This document shows positions 19,714 to 31,130 of a stretch of DNA of 64,000 bases, piece after piece (within the stretch, counting starts at the first letter, position 1; each line of letters opens with the position of its first letter). Below the pieces are notes generated by a model, which did not search any database, was not told the DNA's origin, and was given only the letters and a program-made list of their open reading frames with translations. This stretch comes from Gemmatimonadetes bacterium 2013_60CM_65_52 (GTDB lineage: Bacteria > Gemmatimonadota > Gemmatimonadetes > Gemmatimonadales > Gemmatimonadaceae): the NCBI GenBank assembly GCA_002215645.1, contig NGFI01000005.1, positions 612,678-676,677 on the forward strand. Reading direction: 5' to 3'. Both the position numbers and the translations under genes were made by a program.

Positions 19714-19740
19714 GGGCACTCTCTCACTTGGGAGGTGCCC
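19714..19740 (+). promoter_or_regulatory. Shine-Dalgarno-sequestering hairpin of btuF (riboswitch expression platform)
   Basis: GGGCACT at 19714-19720 can pair with GGTGCCC at 19734-19740 (one G-T wobble). The btuF ribosome binding site GGGAGG at 19730-19735 overlaps the 3' arm, and the start GTG follows at 19744. This suggests translational control by the upstream riboswitch. Confidence 0.55.
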
Positions 19741-19743
19741 GTC

Positions 19744-20640
19744 GTGTTTTTCGCCCGTCATTGCCGAACTGTCTGGCGGCTCGCGCTGCCCGCCGCAACG
19801 CTGCTCGCGTGCACGCGCGAAGCGGCTCCCGTTCGCGCGCCATTTACCGACGACTTCGGCGACACGCTCGGGACGAGCGCGGCGCCGGCGCGCATCGTCT
19901 CGCTCAATCCGGCCACGACCGAGATCCTCTACGCCGTCGGGGCAGGGGCGCGCGTCGTCGGCCGCACGACGTACGATGCCTATCCGCCGCGCGTGCGCGC
20001 CGTCACCGATCTCGGGCCGGGCCTTCGACCCAATGTCGAAGCAATCATCGCCACGCATCCCGATCTCGTCCTGCTCTACGCCAGCGAGGACAATCGCGAC
20101 GCGGCACGCCGTCTCCGCGCCGCGGGCATTCGCACCGCCGCTTTTCGCGTGGACCGCATTCGCGATCTCGCCCGCGTCACGCGGCTCGTCGGCCACCTTA
20201 CCGGCGATAGCGCGCAAGCATCGCGCACGATCGACTCGGTGAGCGTCACCCTGGCACACGTCCGCACCGCGACGGCGATGCTGCCGCACCCGTCGGTCTT
20301 CTGGCCTTTCTGGGAATCGCCACTCCTGTCGGTAGGCGGCGGGAGCTTCGTAAACGAGATGATCGAGCTGGCTGGTGGACGGAACGTCTTCGCCGAGCTG
20401 CCGCAGCCGTCGCCGCAGATCACGTTCGAGGAGCTCGTGCGGCGGGACCCCGATCTGATTCTCACGGGACCGTCCACGCGGCAGCGCATGCTGTCGGATC
20501 CGCGATGGCAGACGCTTCGCGCGGTCCGGGCGGGACACATTCTCGTCATCGATACCAGCATCGTAAACGGGCCTTCGCCCCGCGTCGGCGCAAACACCGT
20601 CGGCCTCGCCAGGCTGTTGCATCCCGAGGCGAAGCTCTGA
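19744..20640 (+). CDS. btuF: Cobalamin ABC transporter substrate-binding lipoprotein
   Basis: 298-residue periplasmic binding protein of the BtuF/FhuD class. The lipobox LLAC is seen after a short hydrophobic leader, so the protein is probably lipid-anchored. The family core includes RIVSLNPATTEILYAVGAG and VVGRTTYDAYPP; the C-terminal lobe has LLSVGGGSFVNEMIELAGG. The GTG at 19744 is favoured because GGGAGG is eight bases upstream; an earlier in-frame GTG at 19735 is the alternative. Cobalamin is assigned from the riboswitch and the operon. Confidence 0.9.
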   Translation: MFFARHCRTVWRLALPAATLLACTREAAPVRAPFTDDFGDTLGTSAAPARIVSLNPATTEILYAVGAGARVVGRTTYDAYPPRVRAVTDLGPGLRPNVEAIIATHPDLVLLYASEDNRDAARRLRAAGIRTAAFRVDRIRDLARVTRLVGHLTGDSAQASRTIDSVSVTLAHVRTATAMLPHPSVFWPFWESPLLSVGGGSFVNEMIELAGGRNVFAELPQPSPQITFEELVRRDPDLILTGPSTRQRMLSDPRWQTLRAVRAGHILVIDTSIVNGPSPRVGANTVGLARLLHPEAKL

Positions 20641-20641
20641 C

Positions 20642-21613
20642 GTGACGCGCATTCGCTGGGCGCTGCTCTGGCTCATTCTTGTCGTCGCGATAATGGGCGG
20701 TGTGATGGTCGGGACGATTCGTCTCGCGCCGGCGGACGTCGTCGACGGTCTGCTCGGTGTCGGTCACCCTACGACCGTCGCCGTGGTTCGCACGCTGCGG
20801 CTTCCTCGTGTCTTGCTCGCCGCGCTGGTGGGTGCCGGGCTCGCCGCGGCGGGAGCCGCGTTGCAGGGCGCCACGCGTAACAGGCTCGCGGAGCCGTATC
20901 TGCTTGGCGTGTCCGGCGGCGCCGCCGTCGGAGCGGTGCTTGCAGCCGCGCTGCATCTGTCACGCGTCATCGTTCCCCTCGCGGGGTTCGGTGGTGCGCT
21001 CGCCGCGGTTGCGCTCACCCTCATTGTGGCGCGAGCCGCCGGCGGTCGCGGCGATGCGCGGACGATTCTCATGGCAGGCGTCGTGGTCGGCGCGTTCGCC
21101 AACGCGGTCATCATGGTGGCGCTCGCGAATTCCGCGGCAAACGAGGTGCGCGGCGCGCTCTGGTGGATGATGGGATCCGCCAGCGATGCGAGCTGGGATC
21201 AGGTGTGCATCCTGTCGGGCTTCGTCGCCGTCGGTGTCGGAGCGCTGCTGGCGCTCGGCCGATCGATCGACGTTCTCGCCCTCGGCGACGACGCGGCGGC
21301 GGGACTCGGCGTCGACGTCGCGCGTGCGTCGCTTGCCGTCTACGTGTGCGGCGCGCTCCTGGCCGCGGGCACCGTCAGTGCGGCGGGGCTGGTGGGATTC
21401 ATCGGACTGCTCGTGCCGCACCTCGTGCGTCTCGCTGGCGCCCGCACACATCGGACCATCATCGGCGCAGCGGCGCTCGGCGGCGCTTCGCTCGTCGTGC
21501 TCGCTGATCTCATTGCGCGAACGGCGCTGCCTCCGGCGGAGCTGCCACTCGGCGCTGTCACAGCGCTCATTGGGGTTCCTTTCTTCTTCGCGCTCCTGCG
21601 CCGGCTCTCGTGA
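20642..21613 (+). CDS. btuC: Cobalamin ABC transporter permease (FecCD family)
   Basis: 323-residue FecCD-type permease with about ten membrane segments. Typical sequences are LRLPRVLLAALVGAGLAAAG, ATRNRLAEPYLLGVSGGAA and GLVGFIGLLVPHLVRLAGAR, the last being the loop that contacts the ATPase. GTG start one base after btuF. Its 3' end overlaps btuD by 4 bp. Confidence 0.95.
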   Translation: MTRIRWALLWLILVVAIMGGVMVGTIRLAPADVVDGLLGVGHPTTVAVVRTLRLPRVLLAALVGAGLAAAGAALQGATRNRLAEPYLLGVSGGAAVGAVLAAALHLSRVIVPLAGFGGALAAVALTLIVARAAGGRGDARTILMAGVVVGAFANAVIMVALANSAANEVRGALWWMMGSASDASWDQVCILSGFVAVGVGALLALGRSIDVLALGDDAAAGLGVDVARASLAVYVCGALLAAGTVSAAGLVGFIGLLVPHLVRLAGARTHRTIIGAAALGGASLVVLADLIARTALPPAELPLGAVTALIGVPFFFALLRRLS

Positions 21614-22410
21614 TTACCTATCGCGACGTTGGCGTGCGGTACGCGTCGCGCGACCGCGCCGCCCTACAGGGCGTGTCGTTCGAAGCGACGCGGGGCCGCA
21701 TCACCGCCGTGGTCGGGCCGAACGGCAGCGGAAAGAGCACGCTCGTGCGCGCGCTCCTGGGCAGCGTTCATCTCGAGACGGGGCGCATCGAGATCGACGG
21801 CACGCACATCGCCTCGCTCGCGCGGCGTGAGATCGCCTCGCGCGTGGCGGCGGTGACGCAGCGCGAGGACGTGGTGTTCCCCCTGAAGGTGCGCGAATAC
21901 GTGCAACTCGGGCGCTATCCACGGCTCGGCCTGTGGCGTTCCGTCTCCGCCGCCGACGTCGCCGCCGTCCGGCGCGCACTCGATCTGACCGGAGCGGACG
22001 CGTTTCTCGATCGCGCGTTGTCGCAGCTCTCGGGGGGCGAATGGCAGCGTGTCCGGCTCGCACGCGCGCTCGCGCAAGGCGGCGATGCGATCGTGCTCGA
22101 CGAGCCCACGACGTTTCTCGACGTCGGCCACGAGATGCACCTGTTCGAGCTCCTCGGACGCCTTGCGTCGGAAGGACACGCTGTATTGCTGGTGAGCCAC
22201 CAGCTCAATCTCGTCGCGCGCTTCGCCGCTCACATGGTGCTCCTGCACCACGGCCGTATCGAGGCCGCCGGCACGCCGGACGATGTAATGCAGGCCGGCG
22301 TGCTCGAGCGCGTTTATGAATGGCCACTCGTCATCACGCGCGACCCGGCGGTCGGCGCACCCACGCTCGTTCCTCTCCGCGCTCGCCCTCGCGGCGATCG
22401 CACCGTCTGA
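21610..22410 (+). CDS. btuD: Cobalamin ABC transporter ATPase
   Basis: 266-residue ABC ATPase. Walker A is GPNGSGKST, the signature is LSGGEWQRVRLARALAQ, and Walker B is IVLDEPTTFLD. The downstream H-loop is in LLVSHQLNLV. Operon position with btuC and btuF supports cobalamin uptake. Overlaps btuC by 4 bp; btuB begins 28 bp later. Confidence 0.94.
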   Translation: MITYRDVGVRYASRDRAALQGVSFEATRGRITAVVGPNGSGKSTLVRALLGSVHLETGRIEIDGTHIASLARREIASRVAAVTQREDVVFPLKVREYVQLGRYPRLGLWRSVSAADVAAVRRALDLTGADAFLDRALSQLSGGEWQRVRLARALAQGGDAIVLDEPTTFLDVGHEMHLFELLGRLASEGHAVLLVSHQLNLVARFAAHMVLLHHGRIEAAGTPDDVMQAGVLERVYEWPLVITRDPAVGAPTLVPLRARPRGDRTV

Positions 22411-22438
22411 CGTTCATCCTTCACGCGTACCGGCACTC

Positions 22439-24415
22439 ATGAAACACCACGCGCTCTCCCTCGCCCTCGTCGCATGCACGGCACCGCTCTCACTCGTCGG
22501 CGCACAGGTTGCGCGTGATACGGCACACGCGCCGACCATCGTCGTTACCGCCACCCGAACGCCGCTCAGCATCATGCGGTCACCTGCAACGGTCTCGGTC
22601 ATCAGCGGCGACGAATTGCGTCGCGAGGGCATCGTGTCGGTTGTCGACGCACTGCGGCATGTGCCCGGCCTCACCGTGGTCCAGACGGGATCGTACGGTG
22701 GCGCGACGTCGCTGTTCATCCGCGGCGGCGAGAGCAAGTTCGCGAAGGTTCTCGTCGACGGCGTCGCCGTCAACGACGCCGGGGGCGCGTTCGATTTCTC
22801 GTCACTCAGCACCGACAATCTCGAGCGCATCGAGATCGTGCGTGGGCCCGCGAGTGTTTTGTACGGCTCCGATGCGATGGCGGGCGTGGTGCAACTCTTC
22901 ACGAGGCGGGGCAGCGGTCCTCCGCGCATCGACCTGTCGGCGCGCGGAGGACGGTACGCCACATACGACGCAGACGCCGCCATTCGCGGCACCGATCACG
23001 GCGTGGACTATTCTGTCTCCGGCGCGCGACATAGCACGGACGGCATCCAGCTCTTCAACAGTGGGTTCAGGCAGAGCGTCGGTAGCGGAACGGTCGGCTG
23101 GCATGGAGCGGGCGCCGACGCTCGACTCACCGCGCGTTTCACCGACGACAACCTGCATTACCCCACGGACGGATCAGGTCAGGTGGTGGACAGCAATGCG
23201 ACCCGTCGAGACGACCGGCTCGTGCTGGGCTTCGACGGGGGGCTGCGGCTCTCCTCGGCGGCGACCCTTCAGCTCGCACTTGCATCGAGCGGCATTCACG
23301 CCATCTCCGACAATCAGCCGGACGGCCCCGCCGATACGCATGGTTACTACTACACGACCGGCGACCGCTCGTATCGCCGCAGCGCGGACCTCAGAATCAA
23401 CGCCACGCTGATGCAGGGCCTCGAGCTCACGACCGGCGCGCAAACGGAACGGCAATGGCAGACGAGTGCCACGCAGAGCAATTTCGGACCCTCGTCGTAC
23501 AGTGCGCGCCGCCGCAGCACGGGGTATTACTCGCAACTGCTGTACGGAGCCGACAACTACACCGCCACACTCGGCGGCCGCTTCGAGCACAGTCAGACGT
23601 TCGGCGACTTCTTCACGTATCGCGCCGCGGCCAACGTCAACCCGTTCATGGCGACTCGAGTCCACGCCAGCGCGGGCACGTCGTTTCGCGAACCGACCAT
23701 GCTCGAGAACTTCGGCGGCGGCTTCGTCATCGGGGACTCGACGCTCAGCCCCGAGCAGGCGCACAGCTTCGATGCCGGTATCGAGCAATCGCTCGAGCAG
23801 TGGGGCACGATCAGCGTCACCGGGTTCTGGAACTGGTTCAGTAACCTGATCGACTACAAGTACTCCGCCAAGGATCCCAACTACTTCAACGTCGCGAAGA
23901 CGAAGACCTCCGGCGCGGAGCTCGGCTGGAGCGTACAGCTTCCCGGCGGATTCCACGGCGACGCGTCCCTGACCTATCTCGACGCGAGAGTCGTTGATCC
24001 GGGCAAGAGCACGGCTGCCACGGCCGCATTTGCGCCGGGGGCGCGACTGCTTCGCCGGCCGATGCAGACGATGGACCTCGGTGCAGGCTATGGAACGGCG
24101 CGCGGCACCTTCGACGTACGCGTCCACCGATCGGGAACACGCGAAGACGTGTTCTTCGCACCCGACTTCTCGAGCAAGCGCGTCACCCTTCCGGCGTACG
24201 TTCGCACGGACGTTTCGGGTGAGCTGCCGCTGACTCCCGAGTCCGGACGCTCAATGACGTTGACGGCGCGCGTCGAGAATCTGTTCGACGTCCGGTACTC
24301 CGAGGTCGCCGGCGTCAACTATGATTTCTCGCGAACCGACGACGCGTCCATCAACCACACGGGCTATCGCGCACCGGGCCGCCGAGCGTTGCTCGGTCTG
24401 CGCCTCTCGCTCTGA
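22439..24415 (+). CDS. btuB: TonB-dependent outer-membrane cobalamin receptor
   Basis: 658-residue TonB-dependent receptor. It has a signal peptide ending LSLVGAQ, a TonB-box-like PTIVVTATRT, a plug domain with LRHVPGLTVVQTGSYGG and FIRGGESKFAKVLVDGVAVN, and a barrel that closes with a YRAPGRRALLGLRLSL-type terminal strand. The cobalamin substrate is inferred from the shared operon with a B12 riboswitch. The ATG at 22439 is chosen because a typical signal peptide follows immediately. Confidence 0.92.
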   Translation: MKHHALSLALVACTAPLSLVGAQVARDTAHAPTIVVTATRTPLSIMRSPATVSVISGDELRREGIVSVVDALRHVPGLTVVQTGSYGGATSLFIRGGESKFAKVLVDGVAVNDAGGAFDFSSLSTDNLERIEIVRGPASVLYGSDAMAGVVQLFTRRGSGPPRIDLSARGGRYATYDADAAIRGTDHGVDYSVSGARHSTDGIQLFNSGFRQSVGSGTVGWHGAGADARLTARFTDDNLHYPTDGSGQVVDSNATRRDDRLVLGFDGGLRLSSAATLQLALASSGIHAISDNQPDGPADTHGYYYTTGDRSYRRSADLRINATLMQGLELTTGAQTERQWQTSATQSNFGPSSYSARRRSTGYYSQLLYGADNYTATLGGRFEHSQTFGDFFTYRAAANVNPFMATRVHASAGTSFREPTMLENFGGGFVIGDSTLSPEQAHSFDAGIEQSLEQWGTISVTGFWNWFSNLIDYKYSAKDPNYFNVAKTKTSGAELGWSVQLPGGFHGDASLTYLDARVVDPGKSTAATAAFAPGARLLRRPMQTMDLGAGYGTARGTFDVRVHRSGTREDVFFAPDFSSKRVTLPAYVRTDVSGELPLTPESGRSMTLTARVENLFDVRYSEVAGVNYDFSRTDDASINHTGYRAPGRRALLGLRLSL

Positions 24416-24443
24416 GCATGTTGCCGGCGGTTATCTTCCGAGC

Positions 24444-25196
24444 ATGGCTTTGCTTGCCACGGATGCCATCGTCCTGCACGCGTTCGACTATCTCGAGTCC
24501 TCGAGAATCCTCCGCCTTGTAACGCGGGAGGGCGGCGTGCGCAGCGTCCTGGCCAAGGGCGCACGCCGCTCCTCACGTCGGTTTGGTGGTGGCCTCGATC
24601 TGTTCGCGCAGGGAACGGCGCATCTGTACACGAAGCCGGGGCGCGATCTGGACACGCTCGCCGGATTCGACATTGCACGCTCTCGGCCGGCGCTTGGCGA
24701 GGATCTCGGACGCTTCACGGGTGCCTCGGCCGTCGCTGAGCTCACGTTGCGATTTGGCGGTGAGGCCGCGGACGGCGGACTGTTCGACGCCGTCTCCAAC
24801 GCGTTCGACGCGATTGCCGTCGCAAGTGCCGGCTCCGCGAGCACCGCCACGCTCGCGAGTGCCTGGCGCGTTGTGGCCGAGTTGGGATTTGCGCCGGCCA
24901 CGGACATCTGTGGTGAGTGTCACGCCCCCATCGCGCCCGATGCGACGACGATGTTCAGCCACGCCGCCGGAGGAACGCTCTGCCAGCGATGCGGCCGCAC
25001 CGCACCGGCGGGGCGTCTTCTGCCACCCGACGCGCGACACACGCTTCGCCAGCTTCTCTATGGCGACGACTCGCTCACCCTCGACGAGCCGTCCGCCCGC
25101 GCGCACCAACGCCTGCTGCGCGAGTTCCTCGCGGAACATCTGAGCGACGGCCGCCCACTCAAGGCACTCGAGCTCTGGGAAGATCGTCGATGGTAG
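24444..25196 (+). CDS. recO: DNA repair protein RecO
   Basis: RecO, 250 residues, loads RecA on SSB-coated DNA with RecR in the RecFOR pathway. The N-terminal OB fold begins ALLATDAIVLHAFDYLESSR. A zinc finger is present with two C-x2-C pairs (CGECHAPI and CQRCGR). TATCTT at 24432-24437 ends six bases before the ATG with no ribosome binding site, so the mRNA may be leaderless. Confidence 0.93.
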   Translation: MALLATDAIVLHAFDYLESSRILRLVTREGGVRSVLAKGARRSSRRFGGGLDLFAQGTAHLYTKPGRDLDTLAGFDIARSRPALGEDLGRFTGASAVAELTLRFGGEAADGGLFDAVSNAFDAIAVASAGSASTATLASAWRVVAELGFAPATDICGECHAPIAPDATTMFSHAAGGTLCQRCGRTAPAGRLLPPDARHTLRQLLYGDDSLTLDEPSARAHQRLLREFLAEHLSDGRPLKALELWEDRRW

Positions 25197-25206
25197 CACA
25201 CCGCGC

Positions 25207-27060
25207 ATGATTCTCGGGACGGCCGGCCACATCGATCACGGCAAGACGACGCTCGTTCGCGCCCTGACCGGCGTGGACACCGATCGCCTGCCCGAAGAGA
25301 AGCGGCGCGGCATCACGATCGATCTCGGATTTGCTCCCCTCGCCCTCGATGGCGTGGGTCAAGTGGGCGTCGTCGACGTGCCTGGCCACGAAGCGTTCGT
25401 GCGTACGATGGTGGCCGGGGCGACGGGCATCGACTTCGCGCTGCTCGTCGTGGCCGGCGACGCGGGCGTCATGCCGCAGACGCGGGAGCATGTCGCAATT
25501 CTCTCACTGCTCGGCGTGCGTGCCGGCGTCGTTGCAATAACGAAGAGCGATCTCGCCGACGACGAATGGCTCTCGCTCGTGGAGGAAGACGTCGACACGC
25601 TGCTCGCGTCCACACCGCTCGCCGGGGCGGAGATCGTGCGCGTGTCCGGCGTTACCGGTGCAGGCATGGACGCACTGCGTGCCGCCCTTGCCAGCGCGGC
25701 AACTCGAATTGCTCAACGGCCCGCCCGCGATCTCTTTCGTCTCCCCGTGGATCGAGCGTTCACGGTGAAGGGAACCGGCACGGTGGTCACCGGCACCGTC
25801 TGGTCGGGCACGCTCGCGAGAGACGCGAGCGTCCGTCTGCTTCCATCGGACCGTGTCGTGCGCGTGCGCGGGCTTCAGGCGCACGGACGCGCGGTGGATG
25901 AGGTGCGCGCCGGCGAGCGCGCGGCCATTGCACTCAGCGGCGTCGACGTGGCAGACGTGCATCGGGGCGCAGTCCTCGTGCAGGGCGATGCATGGCGCGC
26001 CAGTCGTGTACTGCGCGCCGACGTCACTCTGCTCGGCGACGTCGACGCAGACATCGGCCCGCGCTCGCGCGTGCGGCTGCATCTCGGCACCAGCGACGTC
26101 GGCGCACGCATCGTGGTGCGCGATAGAGCGCTCACGCAGGGCACGCCCGCGTCCGCCCGCATCGTGCTCGACGAGCCGGTCGTCGCCCGCGGTGGAGATA
26201 GGTTCGTGCTGCGCCTGCCGTCCCCCCTCATCACGCTCGGAGGCGGTACCGTCACCGATCCGCACGCCCCCGGACGCGCGCGTGCATGGACTGCCGGTGA
26301 CCATTCGGCTGGCGGCGTGCTGTCCCGCATGCTGGAGGAGGCCGGCACGACCGGTCTGGAGATTCGAGATCTCTCCGTACGCCTCGGCGTGCTTCCCGAC
26401 GACGTCGACGCGCTGCTGCTGGAAGTGAATGCGTGGCGGGTGGGGAGCACGGCACTGGGCGACTCCGCGCGATCGAGCCTTTTCGCGGACGCGCAGTCGG
26501 CTGTGCGGGAGCATCATGGCGCACGTCCACTCGACGCGGGGATTCCATTGCAGTTGCTCCGCGCGAAGTTGCGCGCGACAGACGACATCGTGAGCGGAGT
26601 CGTCGAAGCGTTGGTGTCGCAGGGGGTGTTGGCGACGAGGCAGCGTGCCGTGTCGCTTCCGACGTTTTCTCCGTCGCTCGACGCCGCGCAGCTCGCCATG
26701 CGCTCCAAGGTGCTGGATGCGCTGCTGGGGGCGGGAAATGAACCGCCGGCACTGTCCGAGCTCGCTCGCGCGCTCGACGCGCCGGTTGCGTCCGTCACGG
26801 ACGTGGCCCGGTGGCTCCTGAGAGAGGGGACGCTCGTCGCGGTGGAGCCGGAGCGCTACTATCCGACAGAGTCGGTGGCCCGGCTCCGGGGGGCGCTTGC
26901 GTCCGGAATGGCCGGAGATCGAGAGTATAGTCCGGCGGAACTTCGGGATTTACTCGGGTTAACACGTAAGTTCCTCATACCCTTCCTAGAGTATTGTGAC
27001 CGTGAGGGTTACACGATTCGCGGCGGGCTCGGCAGGCGTCTGGCGCCGGCCAGGGAGTGA
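25207..27060 (+). CDS. selB: Selenocysteine-specific elongation factor SelB
   Basis: 617-residue translational GTPase. The G domain starts [20 protein letters not shown], has the switch [18 protein letters not shown] and [15 protein letters not shown]-Tu-like beta barrels follow, and the C-terminal third consists of winged-helix repeats ending with a [16 protein letters not shown] segment that in SelB binds the SECIS RNA. No selA, selD or tRNA-Sec gene is in the window, so use of selenocysteine cannot be shown here. Confidence 0.9.
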
Positions 27061-27090: not shown

Positions 27091-27119
27091 TTGACATACG
27101 TCCCTTCGACACGTAATTT
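27091..27119 (+). promoter_or_regulatory. Strong sigma-70-type promoter before the sorting-domain protein
   Basis: A perfect TTGACA at 27091-27096 and TAATTT at 27114-27119 are separated by 17 bp. A GGAG site about five bases before the ATG at 27195 gives a ribosome binding site in a leader of about 68 bases. Confidence 0.75.
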
Positions 27120-27194
27120 CGCGATACGGCAGCATCCCTTTCCACCCCTTAACAGGAGCAGCACCAGGATCCTGTTTCGTCAGCCGGAGTAGCC

Positions 27195-27626
27195 ATGTAC
27201 CACCGCTGGGCAGCACTAGCGCTTGTGCTCGCCCTTTGTGCAGTTCCGACAAAGCAAGCGGCGGGACAGCAGTCGACCTCGCAGTCCCGTGAGCACAAGC
27301 AGTCGGGGAGCCTCGGACAGAACTATCCGAATCCCTTCAATCCGGAAACCGCCATCCCCTTCGAGATCACGAATTGCGAGGGGGCTGTCGGGCAACACAC
27401 GGTCAGCATCAAGATCTTCAATGTGTTGGCGCAACTCGTGGCCGTTCCGATTCTGGACGGTCCGGGCGTGCCTGTCTCCAACCTGAAGCTGGGTTGCGGA
27501 CAGTACACCGCACGCTGGTACGGCAAGGTCCTCAACTCGGGCCGCGAAGCCGCGTCAGGCGTGTACGTGTACGAGCTCATCGTGGACGGTGTGCCGTCGG
27601 CGAAGAAGATGTTCGTCGCAAAGTGA
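27195..27626 (+). CDS. Small secreted protein consisting of a T9SS-type/FlgD-like sorting domain
   Basis: 143 residues with a signal peptide ending AVPTKQAAGQ. The rest is a type-A sorting-domain-like or FlgD-Ig-like fold: GQNYPNPFNPETAIPFEI, VSIKIFNVLAQLVAVPIL, GVYVYELIVDG and a closing KKMFVAK. In Bacteroidota and relatives this domain is the C-terminal tail of large secreted proteins, but here it is the whole mature protein. A cysteine pair (NCEG and LGCGQY) could form a disulfide. It has its own promoter and terminator, so it is a single-gene unit. Role unknown. Confidence 0.75.
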   Translation: MYHRWAALALVLALCAVPTKQAAGQQSTSQSREHKQSGSLGQNYPNPFNPETAIPFEITNCEGAVGQHTVSIKIFNVLAQLVAVPILDGPGVPVSNLKLGCGQYTARWYGKVLNSGREAASGVYVYELIVDGVPSAKKMFVAK

Positions 27627-27654
27627 CCTGAGGTCGTCGACCTTGGCAGAACGC

Positions 27655-27692
27655 GAAGCGTCCGGACAGCCGTCCGGGCGCTTCGTCTCTTT
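27655..27692 (+). terminator. Rho-independent terminator of the sorting-domain gene
   Basis: A 13-bp stem (27655-27667 with 27672-27684, one T-G wobble) has a 4-nt loop and is followed by GTCTCTTT. Confidence 0.8.
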
Positions 27693-27730
27693 CGGCCATG
27701 TCGAGATGGCAGCGTCCATGCGGCACCACG

Positions 27731-27770: not shown

Positions 27771-30386
27771 ATGATCAATCCAGACAAGCTCACGGTCAAG
27801 TCGGCCGAAGCGCTCAACGACGCGATGGCCGAAGCGCGCCGCAACGGCAATCCGCTCGTCTACGACGTCCACCTGCTGCTCGCGCTGCTCCAGCAGGACG
27901 AGAGCATCGTCGTGCCCGTGCTGCAAAAGCTCGGAGCGAGCGTTGCCGCGCTCCGTGAGCAGGTCCTCACGGAGATCGGCCGCTACCCGAAGCAGAGCGA
28001 CGCACAGCCCACGCTCGCGCGCGAGCTCAACGCGGTCCTCGATCGCGCGGAGAAGGAGGCCTCGAATCTCGGTGACGAATACGTCTCGACCGAGCACCTG
28101 CTCCTCGCGCTCAGTGACGTAAAGACCGAGAGCCGCACCCTGCTGAACAACGCCGGCGCGACGCACAAGGCGCTCCTCGGAGCGCTGGAGGCCGTGCGCG
28201 GCACCCATCGTGTCACCGATCAGACTCCGGAAAACCAGTACCAGGCGCTGCAGCGTTACACGCGCGACCTCACCGAGGCGGCGCGGAAGGGCAAGCTCGA
28301 TCCGGTCATCGGCCGCGACGAGGAAATCCGCCGCGTGGTCCAGGTGCTCTCGCGGCGCACCAAAAACAATCCGGTGCTCATCGGCGAGCCCGGCGTCGGC
28401 AAGACGGCCATCGTCGAAGGGCTGGCTCAGCGCATCGTGAACGGAGACGTCCCCGAGAGTCTCAAGAACAAGCGCCTGCTTTCACTCGACCTCGGTGCAC
28501 TCATCGCCGGTGCGAAGTTCCGCGGTGAGTTCGAGGAGCGGCTCAAGGCCGTACTCAAGGAGCTCACCGAGGGCGAAGGAAAGTTCGTCGTCTTCATCGA
28601 TGAGTTGCATACACTGGTGGGCGCCGGCAAGGCGGAAGGCTCCATGGACGCCGGCCAGATGCTCAAGCCGATGCTGTCGCGTGGTGAGCTGCACGTCGTC
28701 GGCGCAACGACGCTGGACGAATATCGCAAGTATGTCGAGAAGGACGCGGCCCTCGAGCGGCGTTTCCAGCCCGTGTACGTCGGCGAGCCGAGCGTCGAGA
28801 GCACGATTGCAATCCTGCGGGGTCTCAAGGAGCGCTACGAGGCGCATCACGGCGTTCGCATCACCGACGGCGCGGTCATCGCGGCGGCGACGCTGTCGCA
28901 CCGTTACATCGGCGACCGCTTCCTTCCCGACAAGGCCATCGACCTCCTCGATGAGGCGGCGTCGCGTCTGCGCATCGAGATCGATTCCATGCCGCAGGAG
29001 ATCGACGAGGTGGAGCGCCGCATCATGCAGCTCGAGATCGAGCGCACGGCGCTGCAGAAGGAGAAGGACCCCGCGTCCAAAGAACGGCGGCACACGATCG
29101 AGCGCGAGCTCGCCGAGTTGAAGGAGCGGTCCTCCGCGATGAAGGCACAGTGGCAGCAGGAGAAAGAGACGCTCGGCGCAGTGGGAAAGATCAAACAGCA
29201 GATCGATCAGGCGCGCATCGAGGCGGAGCAGGCCTCACGTCAGGGTGATCTCGCGCGCGCCGCGGAGATCAGCTACGGCCGCATTCCCGAGCTCGAGCGG
29301 CAGATGAAGGAGGCCGAAGCGAAGCTCGCGAGCCGCGACGGCCGCCCGCAGTTCCTGAAGGAGGAAGTCGGCGCGGAGGACATCGCGGAGGTGGTCGCGA
29401 AGTGGACCGGCATTCCGGTGACGCGCATGATGGAGGGCGAGCGCGAGCGGCTCACCAAACTGGATCGCGAGCTCGCGCGGCGCGTTGTCGGACAGGACGA
29501 GGCGGTGCAAGCGATCGCGAACGCGGTGCGTCGCTCGCGCGCAGGGCTTCAGGATCCGAATCGCCCCATTGGCTCATTCATCTTTCTGGGGCCCACTGGC
29601 GTCGGCAAGACGGAGACGGCACGCGCGCTCGCGGAATTCCTGTTCGACGACGAGTCCGCGATGGTGCGCATCGACATGTCGGAGTACATGGAGAAGCACG
29701 CCGTCGCTCGCCTCATCGGCGCGCCGCCCGGCTACGTGGGTTATGAGGAGGGCGGACAGCTGACGGAAGCGGTACGCCGCCGGCCGTACGCGGTCATCCT
29801 CTTCGACGAGATCGAGAAGGCACATCCGGACGTCTTCAACGTGCTGCTCCAGATTCTCGACGACGGGCGCCTCACGGACTCGCAGGGGCGCACGGTGGAC
29901 TTCCGCAACACCGTGATCATCATGACGTCAAACATTGGCAGTCACTACATCCTCGAGCACACGGGCGAGGACTGGGCGCTGATGGAGACGCAGGTGACGA
30001 GTGCGCTGCGCGCGCACTTCAAGCCCGAGTTCCTGAATCGTGTGGACGACATTGTCATCTTCCGCCCGCTCGGTCCCGAGCAGATCGAGCATATCGTGGA
30101 TCTTCAACTGGCGCGGTTCGAGAAGTTGCTCGCCGAGCGGAAGTTGTCGCTGGAGGTCACGCCGGAGGCGCGTGCGATCATCGCCGAGGAGGGATACGAT
30201 CCGGCGTTCGGTGCGCGGCCGTTGAAGCGCGCCATCCAGCGTCTCGTCCAGAATCCGCTCGCGCTTCAGATCCTCGAGGGGCGCTTCCAGGACGGCGACA
30301 CCATCGTCGTCGATCGCAAGGACGACGGAACGCTCTCTTTCAGCGTGGGCGAGCGCGTGGCTGCCGCGGTTCCCGCGCACGCATGA
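27771..30386 (+). CDS. clpB: ATP-dependent disaggregase ClpB
   Basis: 871-residue Hsp100 chaperone that pulls apart protein aggregates with DnaK. The N-terminal domain (about 1-145) has two Clp-N repeats. The first AAA domain has Walker A GEPGVGKT near residue 205 and a long coiled-coil M domain follows (about 410-520), which separates ClpB from ClpA/ClpC. The second AAA domain has [19 protein letters not shown] near residue 607 and the sensor-2 [11 protein letters not shown]. No CIRCE lies upstream. It overlaps tadA by 4 bp. Confidence 0.97.
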
Positions 30387-30885: not shown

Positions 30886-30972
30886 GGACAGGTGGCTGAG
30901 TGGTTGAAAGCACCGGTCTCGAAAACCGGCGTACCCGCAAGGGTACCGTGAGTTCGAATCTCACCCTGTCCG
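30886..30972 (+). tRNA. tRNA-Ser (anticodon CGA)
   Basis: Acceptor stem GGACAGG/CCTGTCC, anticodon stem CCGGT/ACCGG with loop CTCGAAA giving anticodon CGA, a long variable arm (GTACCC/GGGTAC) typical of serine tRNA, and a TTCGAAT T-loop. It reads UCG. CCA is not encoded. Confidence 0.95.
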
Positions 30973-31032
30973 CTTCGGGCAAGCCGTCGCGTCGCGGGCT
31001 TCCGTATTGTCGGCCTCGAGGCGTGTGTTCCC

Positions 31033-31119
31033 GGATCGGTGGCCGAGTGGTTTAAGGCGCACGCCTGGAAAGTGTGTGTACGTGAAAGCGTACCGTGAGT
31101 TCGAATCTCACCCGATCCG
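31033..31119 (+). tRNA. tRNA-Ser (anticodon GGA)
   Basis: Acceptor GGATCGG/CCGATCC, anticodon loop CTGGAAA giving anticodon GGA, a long variable arm (GTACG/CGTAC) and a TTCGAAT T-loop. It reads UCC and UCU. CCA is not encoded. It follows the first tRNA-Ser by 60 bp and may share its promoter. Confidence 0.95.
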
Positions 31120-31130
31120 CTTAGAACCGT

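Follow-up and report, generated by a model that had tools for sequence, protein, structure and literature searches.

Sorting domains are commonly regarded as disposable address labels, and in those of the T9SS (CTDs) the part of most weight for export is motif D/E with its terminal Lys. To our knowledge, the T9SS has hardly been studied in the phylum considered here. Type-A CTDs have been reported to be necessary and sufficient for export (PMC10202324). In RgpB, replacement of the Lb3b4 glycine by Arg blocked export and replacement by Pro was harmless, according to a second study (PMC11285876). A literature search on stand-alone CTDs and on T9SS, CTD and FlgD proteins in Gemmatimonadetes showed, in the excerpts returned, no paper on the protein described below. 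This protein is encoded in a stretch of 64,000 nucleotides of a Gemmatimonadetes genome (hereafter the window) and consists of a signal peptide and a single Ig-like domain of the T9SS type-A CTD kind. In what we take to be the simplest account, to which we give an even chance, such a CTD became detached from its cargo in an ancestor of the class and is now an independent envelope protein.

A single-copy gene between selB and clpB

The coordinates of the gene, of its neighbours and of its signals are collected in Table 1. The whole product, signal peptide and one CTD-like domain, takes up 143 aa, so that the mature protein is indeed one domain, as the initial annotation had proposed. An AxA-like cleavage site is present in 105/110 orthologues; a lipoprotein was ruled out, a usable lipobox being absent and the Cys at residue 15 not conserved. 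Motifs D/E are present in the window protein (SGVYVY, plus a KKMFVAK end with the motif E pattern). As for the surroundings, region 19735-27060 holds a vitamin B12-type uptake cluster, whose genes were assigned by eye from their open frames as binding protein, permease, ATPase and TonB receptor and which leads into recO and selB; tandem tRNA-Ser genes (cga, gga; 30886-31120) lie 3' of tadA.

Table 1. Features of the locus, in window positions
Feature	Position	Strand	Remarks
selB	25207..27060	+	Upstream neighbour
-35 box TTGACA	27091..27096	+	Perfect; read directly
-10 box TAATTT	27114..27119	+	Family form TAnnTT; 17-nt spacer after the -35 box
Conserved 5' leader	27145..27189	+	Alignment of 59/93 leaders
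Ribosome binding site GGAG	27186-27189	+	
Stand-alone CTD-like gene	27195..27626	+	Stop codon included; ATG start, 143 aa
Predicted Sec signal peptide	27195..27266	+	About residues 1-24; putative AAG-Q cleavage, from the sequence
Ig-like CTD-fold domain	27294..27623	+	Residues 34-143; AlphaFold2 and structural matches
Cys61	27375..27377	+	One of the two Cys of the mature protein
Ala79	27429..27431	+	Position of the Lb3b4 glycine in ordinary CTDs
Cys101	27495..27497	+	Likely disulfide partner of Cys61 (putative bond)
Terminator hairpin and T-rich tail	27653..27692	+	Hairpin itself 27653-27686
clpB	27771..30386	+	Downstream neighbour

A single-copy stand-alone orthologue was found in 49/60 relatives. 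Of these loci of the order, 48/49 have recO or selB upstream (the contig of the exception, L056, does not cover the upstream part), and 44/49 have clpB downstream inside the flank retrieved. Among the 11 relatives without a match, the gene is truly absent from G031, G054 and G055, where selB or recO stands directly beside clpB, and the other eight cannot be judged (clpB is at a contig edge in G053, and seven assemblies have no clpB orthologue). In G031 (locus L066), of genus g23 in family f1, selB and clpB are the genes directly adjacent. Gene and SprA are both missing from genus g23 (12 listed genomes).

Searched across the phylum, a profile built on the 49 orthologues matched 307/395 genomes (E <= 0.001). 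Elsewhere in the class, in further families and orders, selB or recO again precedes the gene at 19/19 strong loci; among the remaining four loci of this set, a weak selB match was seen at two and none at the other two. As for another class of the phylum, two of its genomes yielded 35 and 22 profile matches, nearly all ending long frames. Among the best 80 CTD matches across FCB phyla, 5 are in frames shorter than 220 aa, and only L144, itself an orthologue, consists of signal peptide and CTD alone; since these best matches are mostly in longer frames, ordinary CTDs are tails.

Promoter, leader and terminator conservation

The perfect TTGACA promoter claimed by the initial annotation was confirmed, as were its good ribosome binding site and the gene's own terminator. 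An unaltered TTGACA occurs at the matching place in 54/93 genomes of the order versus 2.9% of shuffled upstreams, at about -96 to -140 and mostly near -105. By group, it was found in 43/74 genomes of the family, 11/19 of the rest of the order and 0/17 of other orders, which mostly carry TTGACC in its place. The generic promoter scan omits this site because TAATTT agrees with the E. coli TATAAT at only 3/6 positions; in an organism-type search, TTGACA-17-TAnnTT with at most one mismatch was met 4 times in the window versus 0.27 expected, the promoter of this gene being the sole exact match among the four. The promoter profile comprises 59/92 rows (spacer 17, full length, order only), which were scanned for TTGA and xAxxxT, and independent evidence comes from the remaining columns only; outside the search pattern, C precedes the -35 box in 92% of the rows and T occupies the first -10 position in 97% (n=59).

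The leader runs from a CACC-like start through AGGAG (27154-27158), CCTG (27171-27174) and TTCGTCAG to the GGAG of the ribosome binding site; its two GGAG boxes, separated by about 30 nt, are common to the 59 aligned genomes together with the CCT box and TTCGTCAG, a conservation that is overstated because these 59/93 rows were partly chosen for a visible motif. Shortly 5' of the ribosome site, GT[CT]A[GA] is present in 58/74 genomes of the family, 8/19 of the rest of the order and 0/17 of other orders. A structured RNA leader was ruled out, given that RNAalifold predicts no pair and that no Rfam family was found for the leader (one chance-level match falls over the terminator), and the element is conserved in sequence only. 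A 19-mer of the leader has one exact copy genome-wide, and a genome-wide motif was also ruled out, with 3 further places at 3 mismatches versus 2 in the control. This order-wide leader may have a role in regulation or in enhancing translation. At the other end of the gene, the folding energy of 27640-27700 is -36.3 kcal/mol (z -5.8), and a stem of at least 10 bp is found downstream in 57/110 orthologues versus 3.8% of shuffles. The generic terminator scan of the window gave nothing at this hairpin, probably because its T tail is short.

Identity of the domain

The domain had been described as T9SS/FlgD-Ig-like, a label of which the first half stands and the second does not. Its scores are 16.3 bits with TIGR04183 (cut-off 23) and 16.1 bits with PF18962 (cut-off 27), both weak and below cut-off, and FlgD_ig (PF13860) found no match in the window protein even at E <= 1. 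PF18962 is matched at E <= 0.01 by 21/49 orthologues, and the closest sequences to the window protein are T9SS CTDs; a PDB sequence search returned only the RgpB CTD, at E 0.72. To judge by sequence, the domain is real though weak by profile, and CTD-like rather than FlgD-like. An AlphaFold2 model, for which the window protein was aligned to 43 related domains, has a pLDDT of 81.9 overall and of at least 90 across most of residues 70-140; this model and its matches to PorU and PorZ CTDs predict a seven-strand Ig-like sandwich. The top structural match is the PorU CTD (6za2; Z 10.3 over 94 residues, rmsd 2.5, 18% identity), and the PorZ CTD (5m11) matches with Z 9.2. The Ig folds of FimC/PapD match the model about equally (Z about 9-10), and therefore the PorU match shows fold, not function. 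With Foldseek, nothing in the PDB matched at E <= 0.001.

Departure from ordinary CTDs

The ordinary CTDs used for comparison come from other FCB lineages (43/80 loci were aligned, L144 being counted with the family and the other 42 as CTDs); their motif A and D columns are conserved by choice, because they were found by patterns on these two motifs. The Lb3b4 glycine is present in 1/111 family members versus 42/42 ordinary CTDs, residue 85 is Pro in 101/111 members versus Leu in 37/42 CTDs, and the stretch from motif A onwards to the end has a median length of 110 in the family versus 85 in the CTDs (about 25 residues longer). One branch divides the family from the CTDs (SH-aLRT 90) in a tree of 46 + 42 rows, which took in 46 of the 111 members. 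The mature part has exactly two Cys in 72/74 members of family f1 and 15/19 others of the order, and none or one in other orders (n=17). This paired pattern within the order fits a disulfide, which in the window protein would join two enlarged loops. The Ala at the Lb3b4 site of this protein may be tolerated, since the change from Gly to Pro was harmless in RgpB. Motif D/E plus the terminal Lys is retained in most members.

Association with SprA

A check for T9SS genes in the window genome, as suggested in the initial annotation, found SprA (TIGR04189, 644 bits versus a cut-off of 200) and a PorV-family barrel (PorV_fam, 101.9 versus 90; the PorV equivalog itself reaches just 40 of 250). The PorV-family gene (L087:1967-3043, + strand) adjoins an era-like GTPase gene and no recognised T9SS gene. 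Among the 60 relatives, SprA was found in 41, window genome included, and PorV-family proteins in 45, namely 40/41 SprA-positive and 5/19 SprA-negative ones; the gene is kept in 13 of these 19. In the class (n=389 genomes; twelve weak matches were scored as gene-negative and 6 genomes of the other class omitted), 238 genomes have gene and SprA, 51 the gene only, 36 SprA only and 64 neither, which gives strong gene matches in 238/274 SprA-positive versus 51/115 SprA-negative genomes (Fisher p 3e-17, uncorrected for descent). The SprA of G381 is a contig-edge fragment, which makes the gene-only genomes 50, not 51. When the window genome's own SprA was used as query, 33/34 SprA-negative genomes were still negative. 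In family f6, nearly all of whose sampled genomes are of this kind, 13 carry the gene and no detected SprA, six of them having been retested with the window genome's SprA; in G299, also of f6, both are present. The gene associates with SprA, yet it often outlives SprA. An alternative T9SS without recognisable SprA may exist in gene-positive, SprA-negative genomes.

On the best ClpB tree (76 of 110 rows, with G381 scored as SprA-negative), at least 11 changes of the SprA label are required, 5 of which are forced by well-supported branches. The gene is under purifying selection also where SprA was not found, with dN/dS of 0.05, 0.08, 0.12 and 0.18 in SprA-less genome pairs, in line with 0.00-0.28 in the other pairs (14 pairs). 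The earlier description of a purposeful gene is supported. There is a hint of quicker evolution in SprA-less genomes, entangled with descent. As raw counts, a terminal K is found in 67/82 SprA-positive versus 5/28 SprA-negative members. A loss of the terminal Lys tracking the loss of SprA is not borne out by 5 independent ClpB-tree pairs (median p 1), of which on average 1.6 went the same way, 0.4 the opposite way and 3.0 were unchanged. Members L123, L129 and L131 of family f6 have an Arg-rich basic tail after the domain, which is absent from most other members.

Whole-genome scans with FlgD_ig and TIGR04183 gave many weak matches in unrelated long frames, which were not taken as counts of cargo. 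The window genome has a second, weak CTD match (L248:2092-3579, - strand; C13, about 207600) in the tail of an approximately 500-aa frame; this frame adjoins an SMC-like gene, holds a signal peptide-like stretch inside and has an ordinary LRGNRVRTL motif with the glycine kept. Its product is likely a real T9SS cargo.

Alternative explanations

The link with SprA could mean that the protein is a true T9SS cargo shrunk to its tag, which passes SprA and ends up as a minimal surface protein, either displayed or released, a role that the initial annotation had also offered and that is possible. Such a cargo would agree with the SprA and PorV-family genes of the genome, with the predicted CTD fold and the PorU and PorZ CTDs among its top matches, with the motif E pattern of the protein's end, with the reported necessity and sufficiency of type-A CTDs for export (PMC10202324) and with the presence of the gene in most SprA-positive genomes of the class. 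We consider it rather unlikely, as purifying selection persists where SprA was not found, the Lb3b4 Gly is lost and the profile scores are under the cut-offs. Alternatively, a free CTD might act in trans, occupying PorV/SprA or the ring, gating the translocon, or replacing the PorU/PorZ CTDs in the attachment complex. A non-cleaved CTD, that of PorU, is the top structural match, the gene is associated with SprA and its expression signals are conserved, all in keeping with this role; it is nevertheless improbable, because the gene is present in many more SprA-negative relatives than PorV-family proteins are, and the similar scores of the FimC/PapD chaperone folds make the PorU match one of fold only. 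A cargo or in-trans role accounts for the association with SprA, not for the retention without SprA. That the protein competes with or loads the secretion machinery, as had been suggested, is unsupported as stated, given that the gene is kept without SprA and the Lb3b4 glycine is replaced.

Two further origins carry very little weight. Derivation from the flagellar hook-cap protein FlgD is highly improbable: the earlier FlgD-Ig wording and the Ig-like nature of both domains speak for it, but PF13860 is unmatched and the nearest sequences are T9SS CTDs. The tail of a larger protein, severed by a frameshift or an assembly error, would suit a domain that is normally a tail; its probability is practically nil, an upstream frameshift or assembly origin being ruled out by the 49 stand-alone orthologues with their own promoter, leader and signal peptide.

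The detached CTD may, in a fuller form to which we give slightly less than an even chance, have been exapted as a free-standing core envelope protein of Gemmatimonadia that gave up the recognition glycine, acquired a disulfide as well as a conserved promoter and leader of its own, and in several lineages has persisted beyond the T9SS. The gene-SprA association, the lack of both in genus g23 and the retention of motif D/E and Lys count against the detached-CTD reading, as do a possible T9SS without recognisable SprA and the possible tolerance of Ala at the Lb3b4 site. To judge by conservation, a housekeeping-type promoter would drive a monocistronic mRNA that carries the conserved leader; Sec would export the protein and signal peptidase cut off about 24 residues. 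In the periplasm the protein is predicted to fold into a CTD-like Ig sandwich, which in Gemmatimonadales the paired Cys would lock by a disulfide between the enlarged loops, and the mature protein would serve the outer envelope as a small module for binding or structure. With its C-terminal Lys motif retained, the protein may still bind SprA/PorV or be exported where these are present; and since the gene is under selection in lineages without detectable SprA, its core job would be independent of the translocon. If true, a class-wide, single-copy sorting label retained without its translocon would be a label turned into a functional protein. The protein also offers a small natural CTD for probing SprA/PorV recognition.

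Comparison with known systems

With the Ig domain of FlgD (PF13860), the window protein has the Ig-like fold class in common and no profile match. The periplasmic chaperones FimC/PapD have an Ig-like fold too and score close to the best matches, but the window protein is one-domain and no sequence relation to them was found; no usher or pilin genes were seen in the parts read. The non-cleaved CTDs of PorU and PorZ are the best structural matches and of similar length. In contrast with the PorU sortase and PorZ, the window protein has no domain beyond the CTD-like one, and the extra loops of its model lie between strands 2-3 and 4-5, whereas those of PorU/PorZ lie between strands 5-6 (as reported in PMC11285876). 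Finally, as in the T9SS type-A CTDs of RgpB, HBP35 and CPG70, the protein has a NYPNPFNP start, an Ig-like sandwich and the WDG, SGxY and KKM..K motifs. On the other hand, it differs from them in its scores below both profile cut-offs, in the extra length of some 25 residues, in the Cys pair, in the replaced Lb3b4 Gly and the change of Leu85 to Pro, in belonging to a family kept without SprA, and in standing alone instead of at the end of a longer cargo.
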